From the IMG/VR virus record IMGVR_UViG_3300047379_000441, positions 1 through 24,663 of that record: a stretch of DNA of 24,663 bases, one strand, 5' to 3'. Position numbers and translations under genes: made by a program. The stretch comes from a virus. Every line of letters begins with the position of its first letter. Position 1 is the stretch's first letter. The notes beneath the pieces were generated by a model, which did not search any database, was not told the DNA's origin, and saw only the letters and a list, made by a program, of their open reading frames with translations. Positions 2 through 5,298 of the stretch are shown one piece after another.

Positions 2-688
2 ATATTTCCAACCAGTGTATATGTTGGAGAGATGGAAGATCATGCACGGCACAAGGAAGTATTTTATAGAGAGATCTATCCAAAGTATGAGTTTCCACGT
101 ATAGAAGAAAGCAGTGGAGATATTAACACTGTATCGGAACACGAGGGTAAACCGATTATTCATACGGAAGAATGTGCGGTGGCAATGATGAAAGAGATCA
201 CCAAACATATTAAGATCTATTATATGGAGATCTTAGGATTAAGGGATGTATTTGATGTTTATCATACAAAGAGTTGGATCTCAAGGAGTTATGGTAGTGA
301 GGAATTAATTCCAGAGCATCTACATGCCCCAGCACATATATCTTATGCCTATTATGTAAATGCCCCAGAAGGATCACATGCATTATCATTTTATGATAAG
401 AAGAAGGGTAATGAGTTATTTCAGAGTGTACTTGATTACTACCATGAGGATGATACATTCATAGATCAGTATACATTTGAATCAACTCAGAAGTATTCTC
501 TTCATACTAAAGAAGGAACAATATGCATATTTCCAAGTAAGACTCCTCATGGGACAGATTCTGTATCCGAGGTTTTTTCTGGCGAGCGACTTGCGATTTC
601 CGGTGACTGTATCATAACGCTCAAAGAATCAGAGAAGATGAAGTATTCGGTGGGGTATATAAACCCGAAGTATTGGCGCACTTATTAG
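2..688 (+). CDS. 2-oxoglutarate/Fe(II)-dependent oxygenase, 5' end outside window
   Basis: Probable 2OG-Fe(II) oxygenase of the type common in cyanophages, using 2-oxoglutarate and O2 to hydroxylate an unknown substrate. The first ATG is at 32, but the frame stays open to base 2 and the upstream codons read IFPTSVYVGE, the usual N-terminal strand of this family, so the true start very likely lies left of the window. Numbering from the ATG at 32, the metal-binding segment is H96-L-H98 in EHLHAPAHISYAYYVN. The distal histidine is H173 in FPSKTPHG, and R186 in GERLAIS is the expected 2-oxoglutarate contact. Strand order and spacing (about 75 residues between the His groups) fit a double-stranded beta-helix fold. 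The stop overlaps by 4 bases the end of the convergent gene at 685-1407. Family assignment is fairly firm; the substrate is unknown. Confidence 0.82.
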   Translation: MFPTSVYVGEMEDHARHKEVFYREIYPKYEFPRIEESSGDINTVSEHEGKPIIHTEECAVAMMKEITKHIKIYYMEILGLRDVFDVYHTKSWISRSYGSEELIPEHLHAPAHISYAYYVNAPEGSHALSFYDKKKGNELFQSVLDYYHEDDTFIDQYTFESTQKYSLHTKEGTICIFPSKTPHGTDSVSEVFSGERLAISGDCIITLKESEKMKYSVGYINPKYWRTY

Positions 689-1407
689 ACGTAGAACCAC
701 ATATAACCACGCCATGTGTATCTACCTTTACTTTTAAGAGATGCTGTTAATGTGGTTCCGTGAGTGCCATTCCCTAAACGTCTGATAGCATCTGCTTTAG
801 ATTCAAAGAAGATCTCTTCCCATGTGATCTTATGAATACCTTTCACTGGTTTCTTTTTAGTTTTGTGTTCAAGCAGCTTCCATCTATGACCATATGAGAT
901 GTAACCCTTACGTGCTGATTTTAGTATGTTAGCGTTACGGTTTGGATTACCTGCAAGTTCTGCTGCCGCAACTCTTGCATTCTCCCACTCTTTTAATTCG
1001 CCTGTTTCTATGTTCATACTCTGAATACGTATACCAGAGTGTTTACCAGTTCCTCTATTTTCATCTGTAAATGTAGGAAGATTCTTAGGTTTCTTCTCTA
1101 TAACTGTAAAGGTCTTAGTAGGAGGTTCTTCTATTATAATATTACTACTGTCATTGTATTCTGGTTTATATCTTCCTATCCAATACTCTGTTTTCTCAAT
1201 AAGATCTAATTCATTACAGGCATCTATTTCTTTTATATTGAATGTATGATTACCATACTTACGCATTGCAATATGTAATGGTTCTCTGGACATACGCCTT
1301 GCACACTCAATATGGTGTTTCCACTCTTTATTGAGCATACTTGTGGTGTTTCCGATGTATTTGTGTCCTGTATCGGTGTTGATGATTAGATATACACTGC
1401 CTTGCAA
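685..1407 (-). CDS. GIY-YIG homing-endonuclease-like protein, probably catalytically impaired
   Basis: Resembles free-standing GIY-YIG endonucleases of T4-like phages (I-TevI and Seg types). Residues 4-90 form the GIY-YIG domain: SVYLI, then KYIGNTT, KYGNHTF, and EKTEYWIGRYKPEYN. Two C-terminal repeats follow, of the NUMOD/intron-encoded-nuclease-repeat kind, about 125-180 (ENARVAAAELAG, GHRWKLLE) and 187-240 (ESKADAIRRLGNG, RGYMWFYV); these would bind DNA. The start is TTG at 1407, chosen because a strong Shine-Dalgarno GGAGG sits six bases upstream on the reverse strand and the GIY strand begins at residue 4. Aligned by eye to I-TevI, the catalytic Arg27 position is Glu28 and the metal-binding Glu75 position is Thr73 (a Glu lies one residue later). 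It may therefore be a degenerate or purely DNA-binding protein. It lies opposite to all its neighbours. Confidence 0.8.
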   Translation of the reverse strand: MQGSVYLIINTDTGHKYIGNTTSMLNKEWKHHIECARRMSREPLHIAMRKYGNHTFNIKEIDACNELDLIEKTEYWIGRYKPEYNDSSNIIIEEPPTKTFTVIEKKPKNLPTFTDENRGTGKHSGIRIQSMNIETGELKEWENARVAAAELAGNPNRNANILKSARKGYISYGHRWKLLEHKTKKKPVKGIHKITWEEIFFESKADAIRRLGNGTHGTTLTASLKSKGRYTWRGYMWFYV

Positions 1408-2221: not shown

Positions 2222-2308
2222 TGTGCCAGTTCGTGGACTGGTTTAAAGATGATCTATTCTCAATAGCAAGATCTTATTGAGAATAAAACCAATTGTAGAA
2301 GTGGCACA
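2222..2308 (+). repeat. structured intergenic element with nested hairpins
   Basis: Perfect outer arms TGTGCCA (2222-2228) and TGGCACA (2302-2308). Inside are CCAGT/ACTGG (2227-2240), TGGTTT (2239-2244) pairing with AAACCA (2286-2291), and a perfect 11-base hairpin TATTCTCAATA (2255-2265) / TATTGAGAATA (2275-2285) with a 9-base loop. The inner helices partly compete for bases, so alternative folds are possible. Overall size (87 bases) and a 7-bp closing stem resemble a tRNA, but no T-arm or D-arm is present. It could end transcription of 2065-2220 or act as a leader RNA or operator. Confidence 0.55.
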
Positions 2309-2344
2309 CAACCCCTTGCGGATTCGTTCGTGAGGGGTTATTGT
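2302..2344 (+). promoter_or_regulatory. recurring promoter cassette, copy 1
   Basis: TGGCACA (2302-2308) followed after 30 bases by TATTGT (2339-2344), here with TTGCGG (2317-2322) placed 16 bases before the -10-like box, a fair -35. The interval also forms a 7-bp hairpin, AACCCCT (2310-2316) with AGGGGTT (2333-2339) and a 16-base loop, which overlaps the -10. It probably drives the gene at 2402. Alternatively the hairpin is a terminator. Confidence 0.5.
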
Positions 2345-2401
2345 TATATCAAGTTCAAAAAAGTTCTCTTGAAAACTTTCACTCCAAACCCACATCTGGA
2401 A

Positions 2402-2545
2402 ATGTTAATGCAACGGGAACAATTGATGGAAGATATTGACTCAATTGTTGATGGTGAACTTAGTGGTATTATTAGTGATGGATTGAGAGATGAATTGGTA
2501 AGACGCCTATGTGATGCCGTATGTAAAAACTTCCCTGCTAAGTAA
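2402..2545 (+). CDS. small protein, unknown function
   Basis: A 47-residue product if translation starts at ATG 2402 (MLMQREQLMEDIDSI). A second ATG at 2408 is also possible. The frame is open further upstream to a GTG at 2330, but that part overlaps the hairpin and the TATTGT box, so I chose the internal ATG. The sequence is predicted mostly helical: QREQLMEDIDSIVDGELSGI, then DGLRDELVRRLCDAVCKNF with two cysteines four residues apart. No zinc-finger or other named motif. It lies between cassette copies 1 and 2, so appears to be its own transcription unit. No function proposed. Confidence 0.6.
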   Translation: MLMQREQLMEDIDSIVDGELSGIISDGLRDELVRRLCDAVCKNFPAK

Positions 2546-2550
2546 CACTA

Positions 2551-2574
2551 TGTGCCAAAAGTATTAGTGGCACA
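2551..2574 (+). repeat. TGTGCCA/TGGCACA hairpin
   Basis: Perfect 7-bp inverted repeat, 2551-2557 and 2568-2574, with a 10-base loop, starting five bases after the stop of the gene at 2402-2545. This is the simplest version of the hairpin that closes the elements at 2222-2308, 3141-3184 and 3580-3624. There is no T-run after it, so it is not a classical intrinsic terminator. Confidence 0.6.
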
Positions 2575-2608
2575 GTAAATGAGCACGGTTCTGAAAATCG
2601 TGTATTGT
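2568..2608 (+). promoter_or_regulatory. recurring promoter cassette, copy 2
   Basis: TGGCACA (2568-2574), then exactly 28 bases, then TATTGT (2603-2608). A second GCAC (2583-2586) lies 13 bases after the GCAC of TGGCACA and 16 bases before TATTGT, in the place of a -35. The leader after the box shares TTTCA and TCAAACAA with copy 4, and both leaders are 28 bases long. Confidence 0.6.
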
Positions 2609-2636
2609 AGTTTCAAGTCAAACAATTCTCTTCAAA

Positions 2637-2786
2637 ATGGATTACGACACTTTCGACACTGATGTTTTTTCTGAGATCAATGACATGCCAGGTGAGATTT
2701 ATGATGTGATTGAATACAAAGAAGAATATGAAGATGATAAGAAGTTTGATGTAGAAGGTTATATTAACGGGAAAGTTGATTACTAA
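2637..2786 (+). CDS. small acidic protein, unknown function
   Basis: A 49-residue frame, ATG 2637 to TAA 2784-2786, starting MDYDTFDTDV and ending YINGKVDY. It is very acidic, with Asp and Glu clusters (IEYKEEYEDDKKFDVEG). No membrane segment or known motif. It follows promoter cassette copy 2 by 28 bases, matching the geometry of copy 4 and its gene at 3688, which supports this start. No Shine-Dalgarno is visible (leader TTCAAA before ATG). Downstream, a weak GAGGG/CCCTC inverted repeat (2795-2799 and 2822-2826) precedes the next gene. Small acidic early proteins of phages often bind host enzymes, but nothing here shows that specifically. Confidence 0.62.
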   Translation: MDYDTFDTDVFSEINDMPGEIYDVIEYKEEYEDDKKFDVEGYINGKVDY

Positions 2787-2850
2787 GTAACATCGAGGGC
2801 TGCACAGTATTAAGCGTAAGACCCTCCAAACATTTTCTCTTTTTAACCTC

Positions 2851-3132
2851 ATGAACTACACTCTCAAGCAACTTCAAGACCGTGTATCAAGTATGATCAA
2901 AGAATTGGGAGAAGATGCAGAATGTGGCGCGTGGATTTATACCAAGAATGATTGTCATTTGAAGGATGAAAATGGTGAGATTGATTATGATAACAACATA
3001 GAAGATCCTGAGTTGGTTAGACGTATCTTTGATGATGTAGGAAACATTGATTACATCTATCAGGTGATTCAAGAGAGTGTGGATGAAGTCGTAGAAGAGC
3101 AATGGATGGCATATCAACACGAGTTAGTGTAA
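2851..3132 (+). CDS. acidic phage protein, unknown function
   Basis: A 93-residue protein starting MNYTLKQLQDRVSSMIKELG. Predicted order: an N-terminal helix (LKQLQDRVSSMIKELGEDAE), a short strand (CGAWIYTKND), an acidic loop (LKDENGEIDYDNNIED), and C-terminal helices (ELVRRIFDDVG, YIYQVIQESVDEVVEEQWMAY). It is acidic overall, with two cysteines (near 24 and 34). No catalytic motif recognised. Start ATG 2851 follows a T/C-rich leader without a clear Shine-Dalgarno. The gap from 2787 lacks the TGGCACA-N28-TATTGT cassette, although TGCACA occurs at 2801, so it may be co-transcribed with the gene at 2637. The reverse-strand frame over the same bases is a shadow. Confidence 0.72.
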   Translation: MNYTLKQLQDRVSSMIKELGEDAECGAWIYTKNDCHLKDENGEIDYDNNIEDPELVRRIFDDVGNIDYIYQVIQESVDEVVEEQWMAYQHELV

Positions 3133-3140
3133 GGCACTAA

Positions 3141-3184
3141 GTGTCACAAACCAGTCGGCTGCCGACCAGTTGGATAGGTGGCAC
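3141..3184 (+). repeat. intergenic hairpin element, longer form A
   Basis: Outer arms GTGTCAC (3141-3147) and GTGGCAC (3178-3184) pair over 7 bases with one G-U. Inside, AACCAGTCGG and CCGACCAGTT pair 8 of 10 around CTG. The nearby GGCACTAAGTGTC (3133-3145) adds a short palindrome. The element is nearly duplicated at 3580-3624, and lies just after the stop of the gene at 2851. Confidence 0.6.
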
Positions 3185-3219
3185 ACGAAATGGGCACAGG
3201 GGCGGAAACCGTGTATTGT
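3179..3219 (+). promoter_or_regulatory. recurring promoter cassette, copy 3
   Basis: TGGCACA (3179-3185), 28 bases, TATTGT (3214-3219). The second GCAC is at 3194-3197, again 13 bases after the first and 16 before the box. The ATG of the next gene is only six bases past the box, so a transcript starting at the usual distance would be leaderless. Confidence 0.55.
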
Positions 3220-3225
3220 AGACAC

Positions 3226-3405
3226 ATGAACAAAACCAACCTTTTTTCCGATTCCAATCTGACCGAACTTCAGGACTTTATGTTTGACACTATGCTACCT
3301 GCTGAAATGTGTGTAGATTGGTTCTGCGAACGTTTCAACGTTAGCGCAACTGATGAAGTCATTGATTTTGTCGTTGATTCACACTTTGCATTCTTCGGTA
3401 ACTGA
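3226..3405 (+). CDS. small protein, unknown function
   Basis: A 59-residue product from ATG 3226 (MNKTNLFSDSNLTELQDF) to TGA 3403-3405. The frame is open back to 3178, but that part is the promoter cassette, so the ATG at 3226 is preferred. The sequence is acidic and helical: NLTELQDFMFDTMLPAEM, CVDWFCERFNVS, TDEVIDFVVDSHFAFFGN. CVDWFCERF has two cysteines five residues apart. No known family recognised. The start is so close to the TATTGT box that translation may begin at the 5' end of the mRNA; otherwise the internal ATG at 3280 is an option. Confidence 0.65.
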   Translation: MNKTNLFSDSNLTELQDFMFDTMLPAEMCVDWFCERFNVSATDEVIDFVVDSHFAFFGN

Positions 3406-3439
3406 CACTAACCTCTCTGTTCTTCATTAACACAAACTC

Positions 3440-3571
3440 ATGCGTATTTGTCTTTCTGCCATTGTTATTTTGTTAGGTGCCAATCTTCTCATCGATCTAT
3501 TAGATTCTGATATGATGGAAGTCATCAACGAAAGAAACGAAACGATTCAAAGACAAATTGATGCAATGTGA
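3440..3571 (+). CDS. small single-pass membrane peptide
   Basis: A 43-residue frame, ATG 3440 to TGA 3569-3571. Residues 3-21 (ICLSAIVILLGANLLIDLL) are one hydrophobic stretch long enough to cross a membrane or to serve as an uncleaved signal anchor. The remainder (DSDMMEVINERNETIQRQID) is charged and helical. It could sit in the host inner or thylakoid membrane; small phage membrane peptides of this kind often affect lysis timing or host transport, but nothing specific is shown here. It lies 34 bases after the gene at 3226 with no cassette between, suggesting co-transcription, and is followed by hairpin element B. Confidence 0.6.
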   Translation: MRICLSAIVILLGANLLIDLLDSDMMEVINERNETIQRQIDAM

Positions 3572-3579
3572 GGCACTAA

Positions 3580-3624
3580 GTGTCACAAACTGGTCGGCTG
3601 CCTGACCAGTTGGATAAGTGGCAC
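3580..3624 (+). repeat. intergenic hairpin element, longer form B
   Basis: Outer arms GTGTCAC (3580-3586) and GTGGCAC (3618-3624). Inner stem AACTGGTC-GG with CC-T-GACCAGTT. Compared with form A at 3141, the left inner arm differs (CTGGTC versus CCAGTC) and restores pairing with the constant right arm, while a T is inserted near the loop. The shared flank GGCACTAAGTGTCACAAA shows the two are copies of one element. Confidence 0.62.
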
Positions 3625-3659
3625 ACAAAAGACGCACGGCGCTCAAAATGCCCTATTGT
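3619..3659 (+). promoter_or_regulatory. recurring promoter cassette, copy 4
   Basis: TGGCACA (3619-3625), 28 bases, TATTGT (3654-3659). The second GCAC is at 3634-3637, 13 bases after the first and 16 before the box. A 28-base leader leads to ATG 3688 and matches the leader of copy 2 (TTTCA, then TCAAACAA). Confidence 0.6.
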
Positions 3660-3687
3660 ACTTTCAGATCAAACAACGACACCAAAC

Positions 3688-4005
3688 ATGCGTAAGATCG
3701 AAACCCAGATGGTCGCAGCAATCCAGAACGACGAGCGTTGGTCATCTGCTAACACGACGGTCATCCCTGGATGGGAGGGAACCTCTGACGTGTATCTCCA
3801 CGGTAGCAGAATTGCCACGATCGGTCAAGATTGGATGCAATTGTTTGACGGTGGGTATCAATCAAAGACAACTAAGTCACGCCTGAATGCATTACTTTCT
3901 GCCTTCGGAATGGACGGTGAGTATGTTTTTCAAAAGAACTTTCAGTGGTTTGTAAACTATCAGGGATCACCGATTCCTTTCTTTGACGGTATGCGGTTGG
4001 CATAG
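3688..4005 (+). CDS. conserved phage hypothetical protein
   Basis: A 105-residue product starting MRKIETQMVAAIQND. The open frame extends to 3580, but that part is hairpin and promoter DNA, so ATG 3688 is chosen. Visible blocks: an N-terminal helix (RKIETQMVAAIQNDERW), WSSANTTV, VYLHGSRIATI, then KTTKSRLNALLSAFG and VFQKNFQWFVNYQGS. The pattern of a small beta domain with an LHG-x-x-IA strand and a T-x-x-RLNALL helix recalls a small protein family seen in cyanophages and some cyanobacteria, whose function I do not know. It is more G+C rich than the late genes. It sits between promoter cassettes 4 and 5, so is likely monocistronic and expressed early or mid-infection. Confidence 0.82.
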   Translation: MRKIETQMVAAIQNDERWSSANTTVIPGWEGTSDVYLHGSRIATIGQDWMQLFDGGYQSKTTKSRLNALLSAFGMDGEYVFQKNFQWFVNYQGSPIPFFDGMRLA

Positions 4006-4048
4006 TGGCACACTGCCACCCCAGAACGCCCCCCTTACCGACTACAAT
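4006..4048 (+). promoter_or_regulatory. recurring promoter cassette, copy 5 (variant)
   Basis: TGGCACA (4006-4012), whose T directly follows the stop of the gene at 3688, then 30 bases, then TACAAT (4043-4048). GTGGCA-CAC-TGCCAC makes a tight hairpin here. The second GCAC is missing and the interval is C-rich. The ATG at 4055 is six bases past the box, so the transcript may be leaderless. Confidence 0.45.
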
Positions 4049-4054
4049 TTGGAT

Positions 4055-4969
4055 ATGCAAAACAAGCACATCGAACACCCCGAAGACCTGATCCTCACGG
4101 GGGACCTGACCGTTCTGGATCTGCTAAGGACAGAGGGGCACCTAAGCGTCAAGATGGACGGCGCTCCTGCCATCGTATGGGGCACCAACCCCGCGACGGG
4201 TAACTTCTTTGTTGGCACCAAATCCGTGTTTAACAAAGTAAAAATCAAAATCAACGAATCTCACAATGACATCGATCAGAATCATAAAGGGGCAGTTGCA
4301 GACATTTTGCACGCTTGTTTTGATTGGTTGCCTCGTCAACGCGGGAATGGAATTTATCAGGGTGATTTCATCGGATTCGGTGGCACAGATGAATATACAC
4401 CAAACACAATCACGTATCAGTTCGATGACATTGTAGAAGAAAAAATAATTGTTGCACCCCATACGTATTACACAGCAGAGAGTGACTTAAGGGATGCAAT
4501 CGCACACCCTATGAAGTTCATCATCACAAACACATCTTACTGTAAGTTTGTGACACCCAGAGCGACGATTGCCTCTGGTTATTATGACGATGGATTGAAG
4601 AGATTTCATGACTTAGACGACGTAATTCGTTTCGCTAAGATAATGGCACAGAACATTGAGTTTGTGACAGATAAGGAAGCAAAGTTAATTAAGCAGGAAC
4701 TTAACTCATGCATCCGTGAGAATCGTCCCGTGATTGCATCAACCTTTATGAATGAGAAACTCATCAGTTTCTGGTTGTTAGTTAAGTCCATTAAAGAGGA
4801 TGCAATATATCTCTGCCGTAATGATGGTCCTAAGGCATACATCGGACAGACTCCAATCGGTGGTGAGGGTTATGTCTACTCCAATGAGTTTGGTATGGTG
4901 AAACTGGTTAATCGTGAGCAGTTCAGTTATGCAAACTTCAGCAACGCTAAGTTTCAACAAAGCGTGTGA
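4055..4969 (+). CDS. nucleotidyltransferase/ligase-fold protein with KxDG motif
   Basis: Probable member of the covalent nucleotidyltransferase superfamily (DNA/RNA ligases and capping enzymes), which attach AMP or GMP to a lysine. From ATG 4055 (304 residues), motif I is K33-M-D35-G36 in GHLSVKMDGAPAIVWG. FFVGTKSVFNK follows, then YQGDFIGF (101-108) at a motif III-like place. EGYVY (271-275) and MVKLVNR (281-287) fit motifs IV and V, with E271 and K283 as expected ligands. I recall related proteins, often longer, in T4-like marine phages. No OB-fold domain follows motif V, so it may lack full ligase activity or need a partner. The open frame upstream to 3983 overlaps the previous gene and the promoter, so it was not used. 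The substrate is unknown; nucleic acid repair or RNA modification are plausible. Confidence 0.78.
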   Translation: MQNKHIEHPEDLILTGDLTVLDLLRTEGHLSVKMDGAPAIVWGTNPATGNFFVGTKSVFNKVKIKINESHNDIDQNHKGAVADILHACFDWLPRQRGNGIYQGDFIGFGGTDEYTPNTITYQFDDIVEEKIIVAPHTYYTAESDLRDAIAHPMKFIITNTSYCKFVTPRATIASGYYDDGLKRFHDLDDVIRFAKIMAQNIEFVTDKEAKLIKQELNSCIRENRPVIASTFMNEKLISFWLLVKSIKEDAIYLCRNDGPKAYIGQTPIGGEGYVYSNEFGMVKLVNREQFSYANFSNAKFQQSV

Positions 4970-4989
4970 CGGTCAGCGAACTGGTCCAA

Positions 4990-5009
4990 AGGGGGTAGAC
5001 GGACCCCCT
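4990..5009 (+). terminator. hairpin after the KxDG gene
   Basis: Perfect 7-bp stem AGGGGGT (4990-4996) with ACCCCCT (5003-5009) and a 6-base loop, 21 bases after the stop codon. It is G+C rich but followed by CTATGG rather than a T-run, so termination may be partial. A possible -10, TATGAT (about 5018), follows and could start the mRNA for the gene at 5053. Confidence 0.5.
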
Positions 5010-5052
5010 CTATGGACTATGATAAGCACAGCAAACAAACAAAGGACACAGC

Positions 5053-5298
5053 ATGAACGGTTGGGCAAACTACGAAACTTGGAACGCTTCCCTCTGGATC
5101 GGTAACGATGAGTTCCTTTACAACACCGCTCGCGCTTGCGTTCAGTTTGCCGAAGGCGAATCACCCTGGACTAAGTTCGTTCGCTGCATGACTGACGGAC
5201 AGATCGGACGCTTTATCGGTGAGACAGACGACGGCGTTCGTTGGGATGACCCCGCGATCGATGCCGATGAGATGGCGGAAATGATGGCGGAACTCTGA
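5053..5298 (+). CDS. NGWANYETWN-type small protein (conserved, unknown function)
   Basis: An 81-residue protein opening MNGWANYETWNASLWIGNDE. I recognise this N-terminus from a family of small proteins shared by cyanobacteria, cyanophages and other bacteria; its function is not known to me. Aromatic residues cluster at the start (W4, Y7, W10, W15). Helices follow (FLYNTARACVQFAEG; WTKFVRCMTDG), then an acidic tail ending DEMAEMMAEL. ATG 5053 follows GGACACAGC, with only a weak ribosome-binding site. By eye its G+C content is clearly above that of the baseplate genes and closer to marine Synechococcus, fitting acquisition from a host. It lies between two C/G-rich hairpins, so is probably a separate unit. 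Confidence 0.85.
   Translation: MNGWANYETWNASLWIGNDEFLYNTARACVQFAEGESPWTKFVRCMTDGQIGRFIGETDDGVRWDDPAIDADEMAEMMAEL

Follow-up and report, generated by a model that had tools for sequence, protein, structure and literature searches.

A novel regulatory element of early genes was reportedly described in the T4-like cyanophage Syn9 by Doron and colleagues in 2016, with similar results for P-TIM40. This element is said to be abundant and conserved among T4-like cyanophages, whose middle genes reportedly rely on host-like promoters. In T4 itself, the MotA box of middle promoters substitutes for the -35 element and has its centre near -30. T4-like cyanophages are stated to lack motA and asiA, as well as T4-type middle promoters (PMC5780444). 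T4-like phages further carry promoter-early stem-loop (PeSL) cassettes (Arbiol et al. 2010; Comeau et al. 2014, via PMC4503421), and these were judged sparse in S-PM2 (PMC4503421). Here we analyse a virus record of 24,663 bases (IMGVR_UViG_3300047379_000441; this whole stretch of DNA is called the window below), which belongs to a T4-like cyanophage and whose BLAST matches are Synechococcus and Prochlorococcus phages. A first reading of its sequence, referred to as the original prediction, had pointed to a recurring phage promoter class that precedes small genes and keeps a fixed geometry. Our results support such a class across T4-like cyanophages: its members combine a -10 hexamer with a 24-bp dyad ending 28–30 bases upstream, which is probably the site of a dimeric activator.

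Promoter copies in the window

The sequence TGGCACA-N28-TATTGT occurs in the window at 2568, 3179 and 3619 only, as originally claimed, whereas dinucleotide shuffles contain 0.01 copies on average and never three. In all three, a second GCAC indeed lies 13 bases past the first and 16 bases before TATTGT. When three mismatches are allowed, the window count is at chance; by pattern alone, therefore, only the exact copies carry weight. A profile was built from the copies of other phages, one near-identical stretch being left out. It matches the three exact copies at E values of 1e-12 to 1e-19, as well as the upstream (box) part of two looser copies (numbered 1 and 5 below) at E values of 0.0014 and 0.017, respectively.

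Six copies are present on the plus strand. Copy 1 (2285–2344) consists of a degenerate dyad at 2285–2308 (AAAACCAATTGTAGAAGTGGCACA), a spacing of 30 and a -10 TATTGT at 2339–2344. Copy 2 (2551–2608; E = 1.5e-17) has its dyad at 2551–2574, with perfect outer arms (TGTGCCA-N10-TGGCACA), followed at a spacing of 28 by TATTGT at 2603–2608. The dyad of copy 3 (3162–3219; E = 1.2e-19) lies at 3162–3185, with a degenerate left arm (GACCAGTT), and that of copy 4 (3602–3659; E = 1e-12) at 3602–3625; both have a spacing of 28, with TATTGT at 3214–3219 and 3654–3659, respectively. Copy 5 (3989–4048) is reduced to a half-site (AGTGGCACA) ending at 4012, with a spacing of 30 and TACAAT at 4043–4048. The five copies listed at the outset, including the two looser ones with their spacing of 30, are thus real, but a sixth had been overlooked (4965–5023). 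It carries TGTGACGGTCAGCGAACTGGTCCA at 4965–4988 and TATGAT at 5018–5023, at a spacing of 29.

Distribution of the dyad

IMG/VR was scanned with the pattern GTGGCACA-N28-TATTGTA, which was found in at least 119 stretches. Among the matches listed, scoring the non-redundant instances against each other separated 77 with a long shared element from 19 chance matches, with no intermediate scores. This clean split and the shuffles rule out a chance origin of the copies. The long element reads, in order, TGKGCCA, GTGGCACA, RGCACAG, CAAAATCGTG and TATTGTA, the box and hexamer columns being set by the search pattern and the remaining columns being free. In more distant isolates the upstream part alone can still be recognised; it is the palindrome TGTGMCASTT-N4-AASTGKCACA, the 24-bp dyad. 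The TGGCACA box of the original prediction is the inner half of this dyad.

We searched for a loose form of the dyad (TGTGNCA-N10-TGNCACA, one mismatch allowed), with the reversed pattern as a control. It was found in Syn9, ACG-2014e, S-SKS1, S-PM2, P-SSM2, Syn1, S-SSM7, S-CRM01, P-TIM40, Syn19 and P-SSM4, that is in 11 of 12 T4-like cyanophages; the twelfth, S-WAM1, was detected by the model only, and its right arm reads ACCTGCACA. The control gave no match anywhere except one in P-TIM40. A lack of enrichment in relatives, which would have counted against the original prediction, was not observed: each of the 12 T4-like cyanophages examined has the dyad in its small-gene module, although sites are weak or few in some of them. 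Syn1 and Syn9 have few sites, and some of the pattern matches lie outside the small-gene module; in S-SSM7, 11 of the 13 sites are located within 41.8–51.8 kb of the 233-kb genome. A first scan of Syn9 with a 28-base model gave no match, because this phage uses a spacing of 29 and TATTCT, with hexamers beginning at 48611, 51053 and 53049 of Syn9. At the same stringency the dyad pattern was not found in T4, in the Pelagibacter T4-like phage HTVC008M, in Syn5 or in Ma-LMM01, and P-SSP7 has a single isolated match with one mismatch. The family and its distribution are established.

Dyads were also observed outside phages. Seven copies of TGTGNCA-N10-TGNCACA, mostly intergenic, are present in the acidobacterial Pyrinomonadaceae SSF56; they look like the regulon of some regulator, related to the phage dyad or not. 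The perfect dyad is also found in Nostocales-type cyanobacteria (six cyanobacterial loci and others). These dyads lie near genes judged by eye to be surface polysaccharide-like, exosortase-like or PEP-CTERM-like, or 3' of purH. The palindromes of Nostocales and Acidobacteria have no gene neighbour in common.

Geometry of the element

When the perfect dyad was searched alone, at least 120 stretches were retrieved, with up to 5 copies in 6.5 kb. Among the matches listed, 25 exact TATAAT hexamers lie at a distance of 29 and 8 at a distance of 30, compared with about 0–1 at nearly all other distances. Five-out-of-six matches to TATAAT number 48 at 29, 27 at 30 and 8 at 28, over a background of about 2. 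The named isolates give the same 5/6 hexamer peak (46 at 29, 12 at 30 and 5 at 28), and the -10 was located 28–30 bases past the dyad in the regions read in T4-like cyanophages. The spacing is thus constrained, as had been proposed; however, 28 is the value of the TATTGT sub-lineage, T4-like cyanophages overall ranging from 28 to 30 with a mode at 29. The geometry is established in these terms. The spacings show a further peak at 40, suggestive of one more helical turn, but this turned out to be mostly the echo of a TATAA-like stretch located 11 bases past the -10. Only four of the stretches have no -10 at 29–30; theirs lies at 40–41, and three of them have a TTGACA -35.

The -10 hexamer is TATTGT in the window and TATAAT in most phages. 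The -35 position, about 17 bases upstream, shows a weak tTGnnA, or TnRGCA in the TATTGT sub-lineage. TnRGCA corresponds to the second GCAC noticed in the window, which does belong to the cassette in this sub-lineage but is conserved only there. Counting from the start of the hexamer, a purine is present at +12 in 82% of cases and a T at +13 in 81%, which suggests that transcription would start about 12 bases past the first base of the hexamer. With this predicted start site, the dyad would be placed at about -65 to -42. The idea of a T4-middle, MotA-like box replacing the -35 was not supported, since a weak -35 position lies downstream of the dyad. Middle timing is likewise unlikely, given that the copies belong to the small-gene module and that the published element of these phages is reportedly early.

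A palindrome common to all copies could also be the operator of a repressor, for example of a phage protein that silences the early genes as infection proceeds. Repressors typically bind palindromic operators, and a single operator would allow the joint switch-off of all copies. However, the dyad is located upstream of the -35 and leaves the -35, the -10 and the start site uncovered, and the strict 28–30 spacing combined with a weak -35 fits a contact with the polymerase better. Although repression from an upstream position is possible, we consider this explanation distinctly unlikely.

Protein-type dyad and stem-loops

An inverted repeat may also act as RNA, as the stem-loop or terminator of the upstream gene placed beside a promoter, in a PeSL-like cassette. 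Stem-loops are indeed present near some copies. One (AACCAGTCGGCTGCCGACCAGTT, 3148–3170, plus strand) lies just upstream of copy 3 and overlaps its left arm (z score of the stretch, -1.25), and a similar one precedes copy 4 (about 3588–3610, plus strand; z score of the stretch, -4.28). Inverted repeats are in excess in the spacers that separate the dyad from the -10, 23–35% of these spacers falling below their own 5th percentile versus 5% in the control, and some are accompanied by T-runs. The spacer of copy 1 contains a 13-bp inverted repeat (AACCCC...GGGGTT) and that of copy 6 the inverted repeat GGGGGTAGACGGACCCCC. Spacer stem-loops occur beyond chance in a minority of copies; a stem-loop separate from the dyad is lacking in many. 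Within the dyad itself, the combinations at positions 8/17 are G-G (40), C-C (27), G-C (12) and C-G (0), so that 67 of 79 are non-complementary, and positions 5/20 vary independently. Each site tends toward one CAGTT half and one CACTT half. As positions 8/17 and 5/20 do not follow pairing, the dyad is probably read by a protein rather than formed as an RNA hairpin; the constraint is at the level of the sequence. Furthermore, a strict distance to the -10 is unexpected for a terminator. An RNA role of the dyad is thus very improbable, although the separate spacer stem-loops possibly act as terminators. An element of the Rfam type was rejected, Rfam giving no match to any curated RNA family and the variation within the dyad being opposed to pairing. 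Before copy 1, TTGTGCCA...TGGCACACA (2222–2308) flank a long stem-loop (2218–2310; -32 kcal/mol, z score -5.7).

Position relative to genes

An ATG opening an open reading frame (ORF) of at least 35 codons is found within 60 bases of 93% of 81 copies, versus 34% at random places, which establishes the position of the element relative to ORFs. The distances between copy and ATG cluster at 6, at 22–29 and at about 58. In the window, copies 1 to 6 fall in the same classes, with ATGs located 57, 28, 6, 28, 6 and 29 bases past the hexamer (2402, 2637, 3226, 3688, 4055 and 5053). The leaders of copies 2 and 4 are of equal length, as originally noted. A distance of 6, found at 3226 and 4055 and in 16 of the 81 copies of other phages, makes the predicted start site coincide with the ATG, and the corresponding mRNAs may be leaderless. 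Among the pairs of elements that are at least 90% alike, 61 of 89 precede unrelated proteins, indicating that the cassette is reused.

All ORFs concerned are on the plus strand. Copy 1 precedes a small ORF (2402–2545; phrog_2584, function unknown), copy 2 a small ORF without family match (2637–2786) and copy 3 a small ORF assigned to phrog_10297 (3226–3405). Copy 4 precedes a Kyanoviridae Gp96 family protein (3688–4005; PF23790, E = 1.1e-42), copy 5 a DUF6267 protein (4055–4969; E = 4.4e-84) and copy 6 a small ORF of phrog_871 (5053–5298). The phrog_1255 ORF (2851–3132), which follows the ORF at 2637–2786, has no promoter copy of its own; a phrog_2517 ORF (3440–3571) follows the one at 3226–3405. 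The small ORFs are followed by gp25, gp6 and an ORF of 4,418 amino acids, an order identical to that of Syn9 (small genes, gp25, gp6, giant structural protein). At the other end of the window, a GIY-YIG/HNH-type homing endonuclease-like gene (685–1407, minus strand) adjoins a 2OG-Fe(II) oxygenase gene (32–688).

Proposed mechanism

We propose that each copy would be used as a promoter by the RNA polymerase of the host, carrying its main sigma factor of the sigma-70 type, the promoter being made of the -10 hexamer, a weak -35 and the 24-bp dyad ending 28–30 bases before the hexamer. A putative dimeric DNA-binding protein, of the host or carried by the virion, would sit on the dyad and help the polymerase to start where the -35 is too weak alone. 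These promoters would serve the small-gene module that precedes gp25, probably an early module. The copies are reused before unrelated genes, in some cases together with a stem-loop that may double as a terminator of the transcript coming from upstream. We give this reading as a whole a probability of about 0.7. Transcription itself, its early timing and activation over repression are inferred here from sequence, and the activator dependence suggested in the original prediction appears probable on the same basis.

Several points weigh against this proposal. The dyads of the window are mostly degenerate in their left arm, so that the TGGCACA box by itself may be enough in this phage. The letters of the dyad, unlike the -10 signal, were imposed by the search in the dyad-selected set, and related phages were counted more than once. 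A lytic phage would need its early activator before making any protein, so that the options would be a protein of the virion or one of the host whose sites are looser; a candidate was not found. Pfam gives no match for Syn9 gp230, which carries the annotation of a transcriptional regulator. Finally, host genomes have no excess of dyads. We counted 10 in 201 genomes of the host family (about 0.43 Gb), where about 6 are expected by chance according to our own estimate, compared with several per 200 kb in phages. On these counts a host regulon was rejected, and a host binder, if any, would need looser sites of its own.

These counts bear on a variant in which the dyad protein is one of the host's ordinary regulators or nucleoid proteins and serves both host and phage promoters, with no phage-specific activator. 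Early phage genes normally need host factors only and the -10 is sigma-70-like, in agreement with this variant; the near-chance number of host dyads argues against it, and we regard it as unlikely. A bolder version of the activator proposal, which we put forward tentatively and with the odds somewhat against it, is that a novel dimeric activator, virion-carried or host-recruited, would bind an operator made of one TGTGMCAGTT and one TGTGMCACTT half-site (8/17 being G/G or C/C, sometimes G/C, never C/G). It would switch on the early genes of T4-like cyanophages, leaderless ones included, replacing the early and middle devices of T4.

T4-like cyanophages abound in the ocean and reportedly do not have the transcription switches of T4. 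The operator and its geometry, common to marine and freshwater members, could serve as bait for the protein that starts the infection programme, and they provide a sequence rule for flagging candidate early promoters in metagenomic contigs.

Comparison with known systems

The element reportedly described in Syn9 and P-TIM40 and the dyad family share their occurrence in T4-like cyanophages, where both are abundant and conserved, the comparison covering their distribution. Since Syn9 and P-TIM40 both carry the dyad, with a -10 at 28–30, our finding is classed with this element, and the dyad family is probably the early-gene switch already published. The palindromic form of the site, its most frequent spacing of 29 and the 8/17 half-site rule come from the present analysis and may or may not have been published already; the dyad motif was not found printed in the literature searched, which did not include the 2016 study.

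PeSLs resemble the dyad cassette in combining a promoter and a stem-loop in the gaps between small genes, and in being present as near-identical copies before unrelated genes. They differ in that the dyad family is defined by a protein-type dyad, with many copies devoid of a separate stem-loop. T4 middle promoters follow a shared logic, in which a box at a fixed distance is added to a sigma-70 -10 whose -35 is poor; in contrast to the MotA box, the dyad has another sequence, ends 28–30 bases before the -10 and would lie at -65 to -42. In activated cyanobacterial promoters of the CRP/NtcA type, a sigma-70 -10 is likewise preceded by a palindromic operator. The CRP site is TGTGA-N6-TCACA. The NtcA site is GTA-N8-TAC (PMC3037559). 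Both differ from TGTGMCASTT-N4-AASTGKCACA in their half-sites and spacing, and the predicted centre of the dyad is near -53.5 instead of -41.5.

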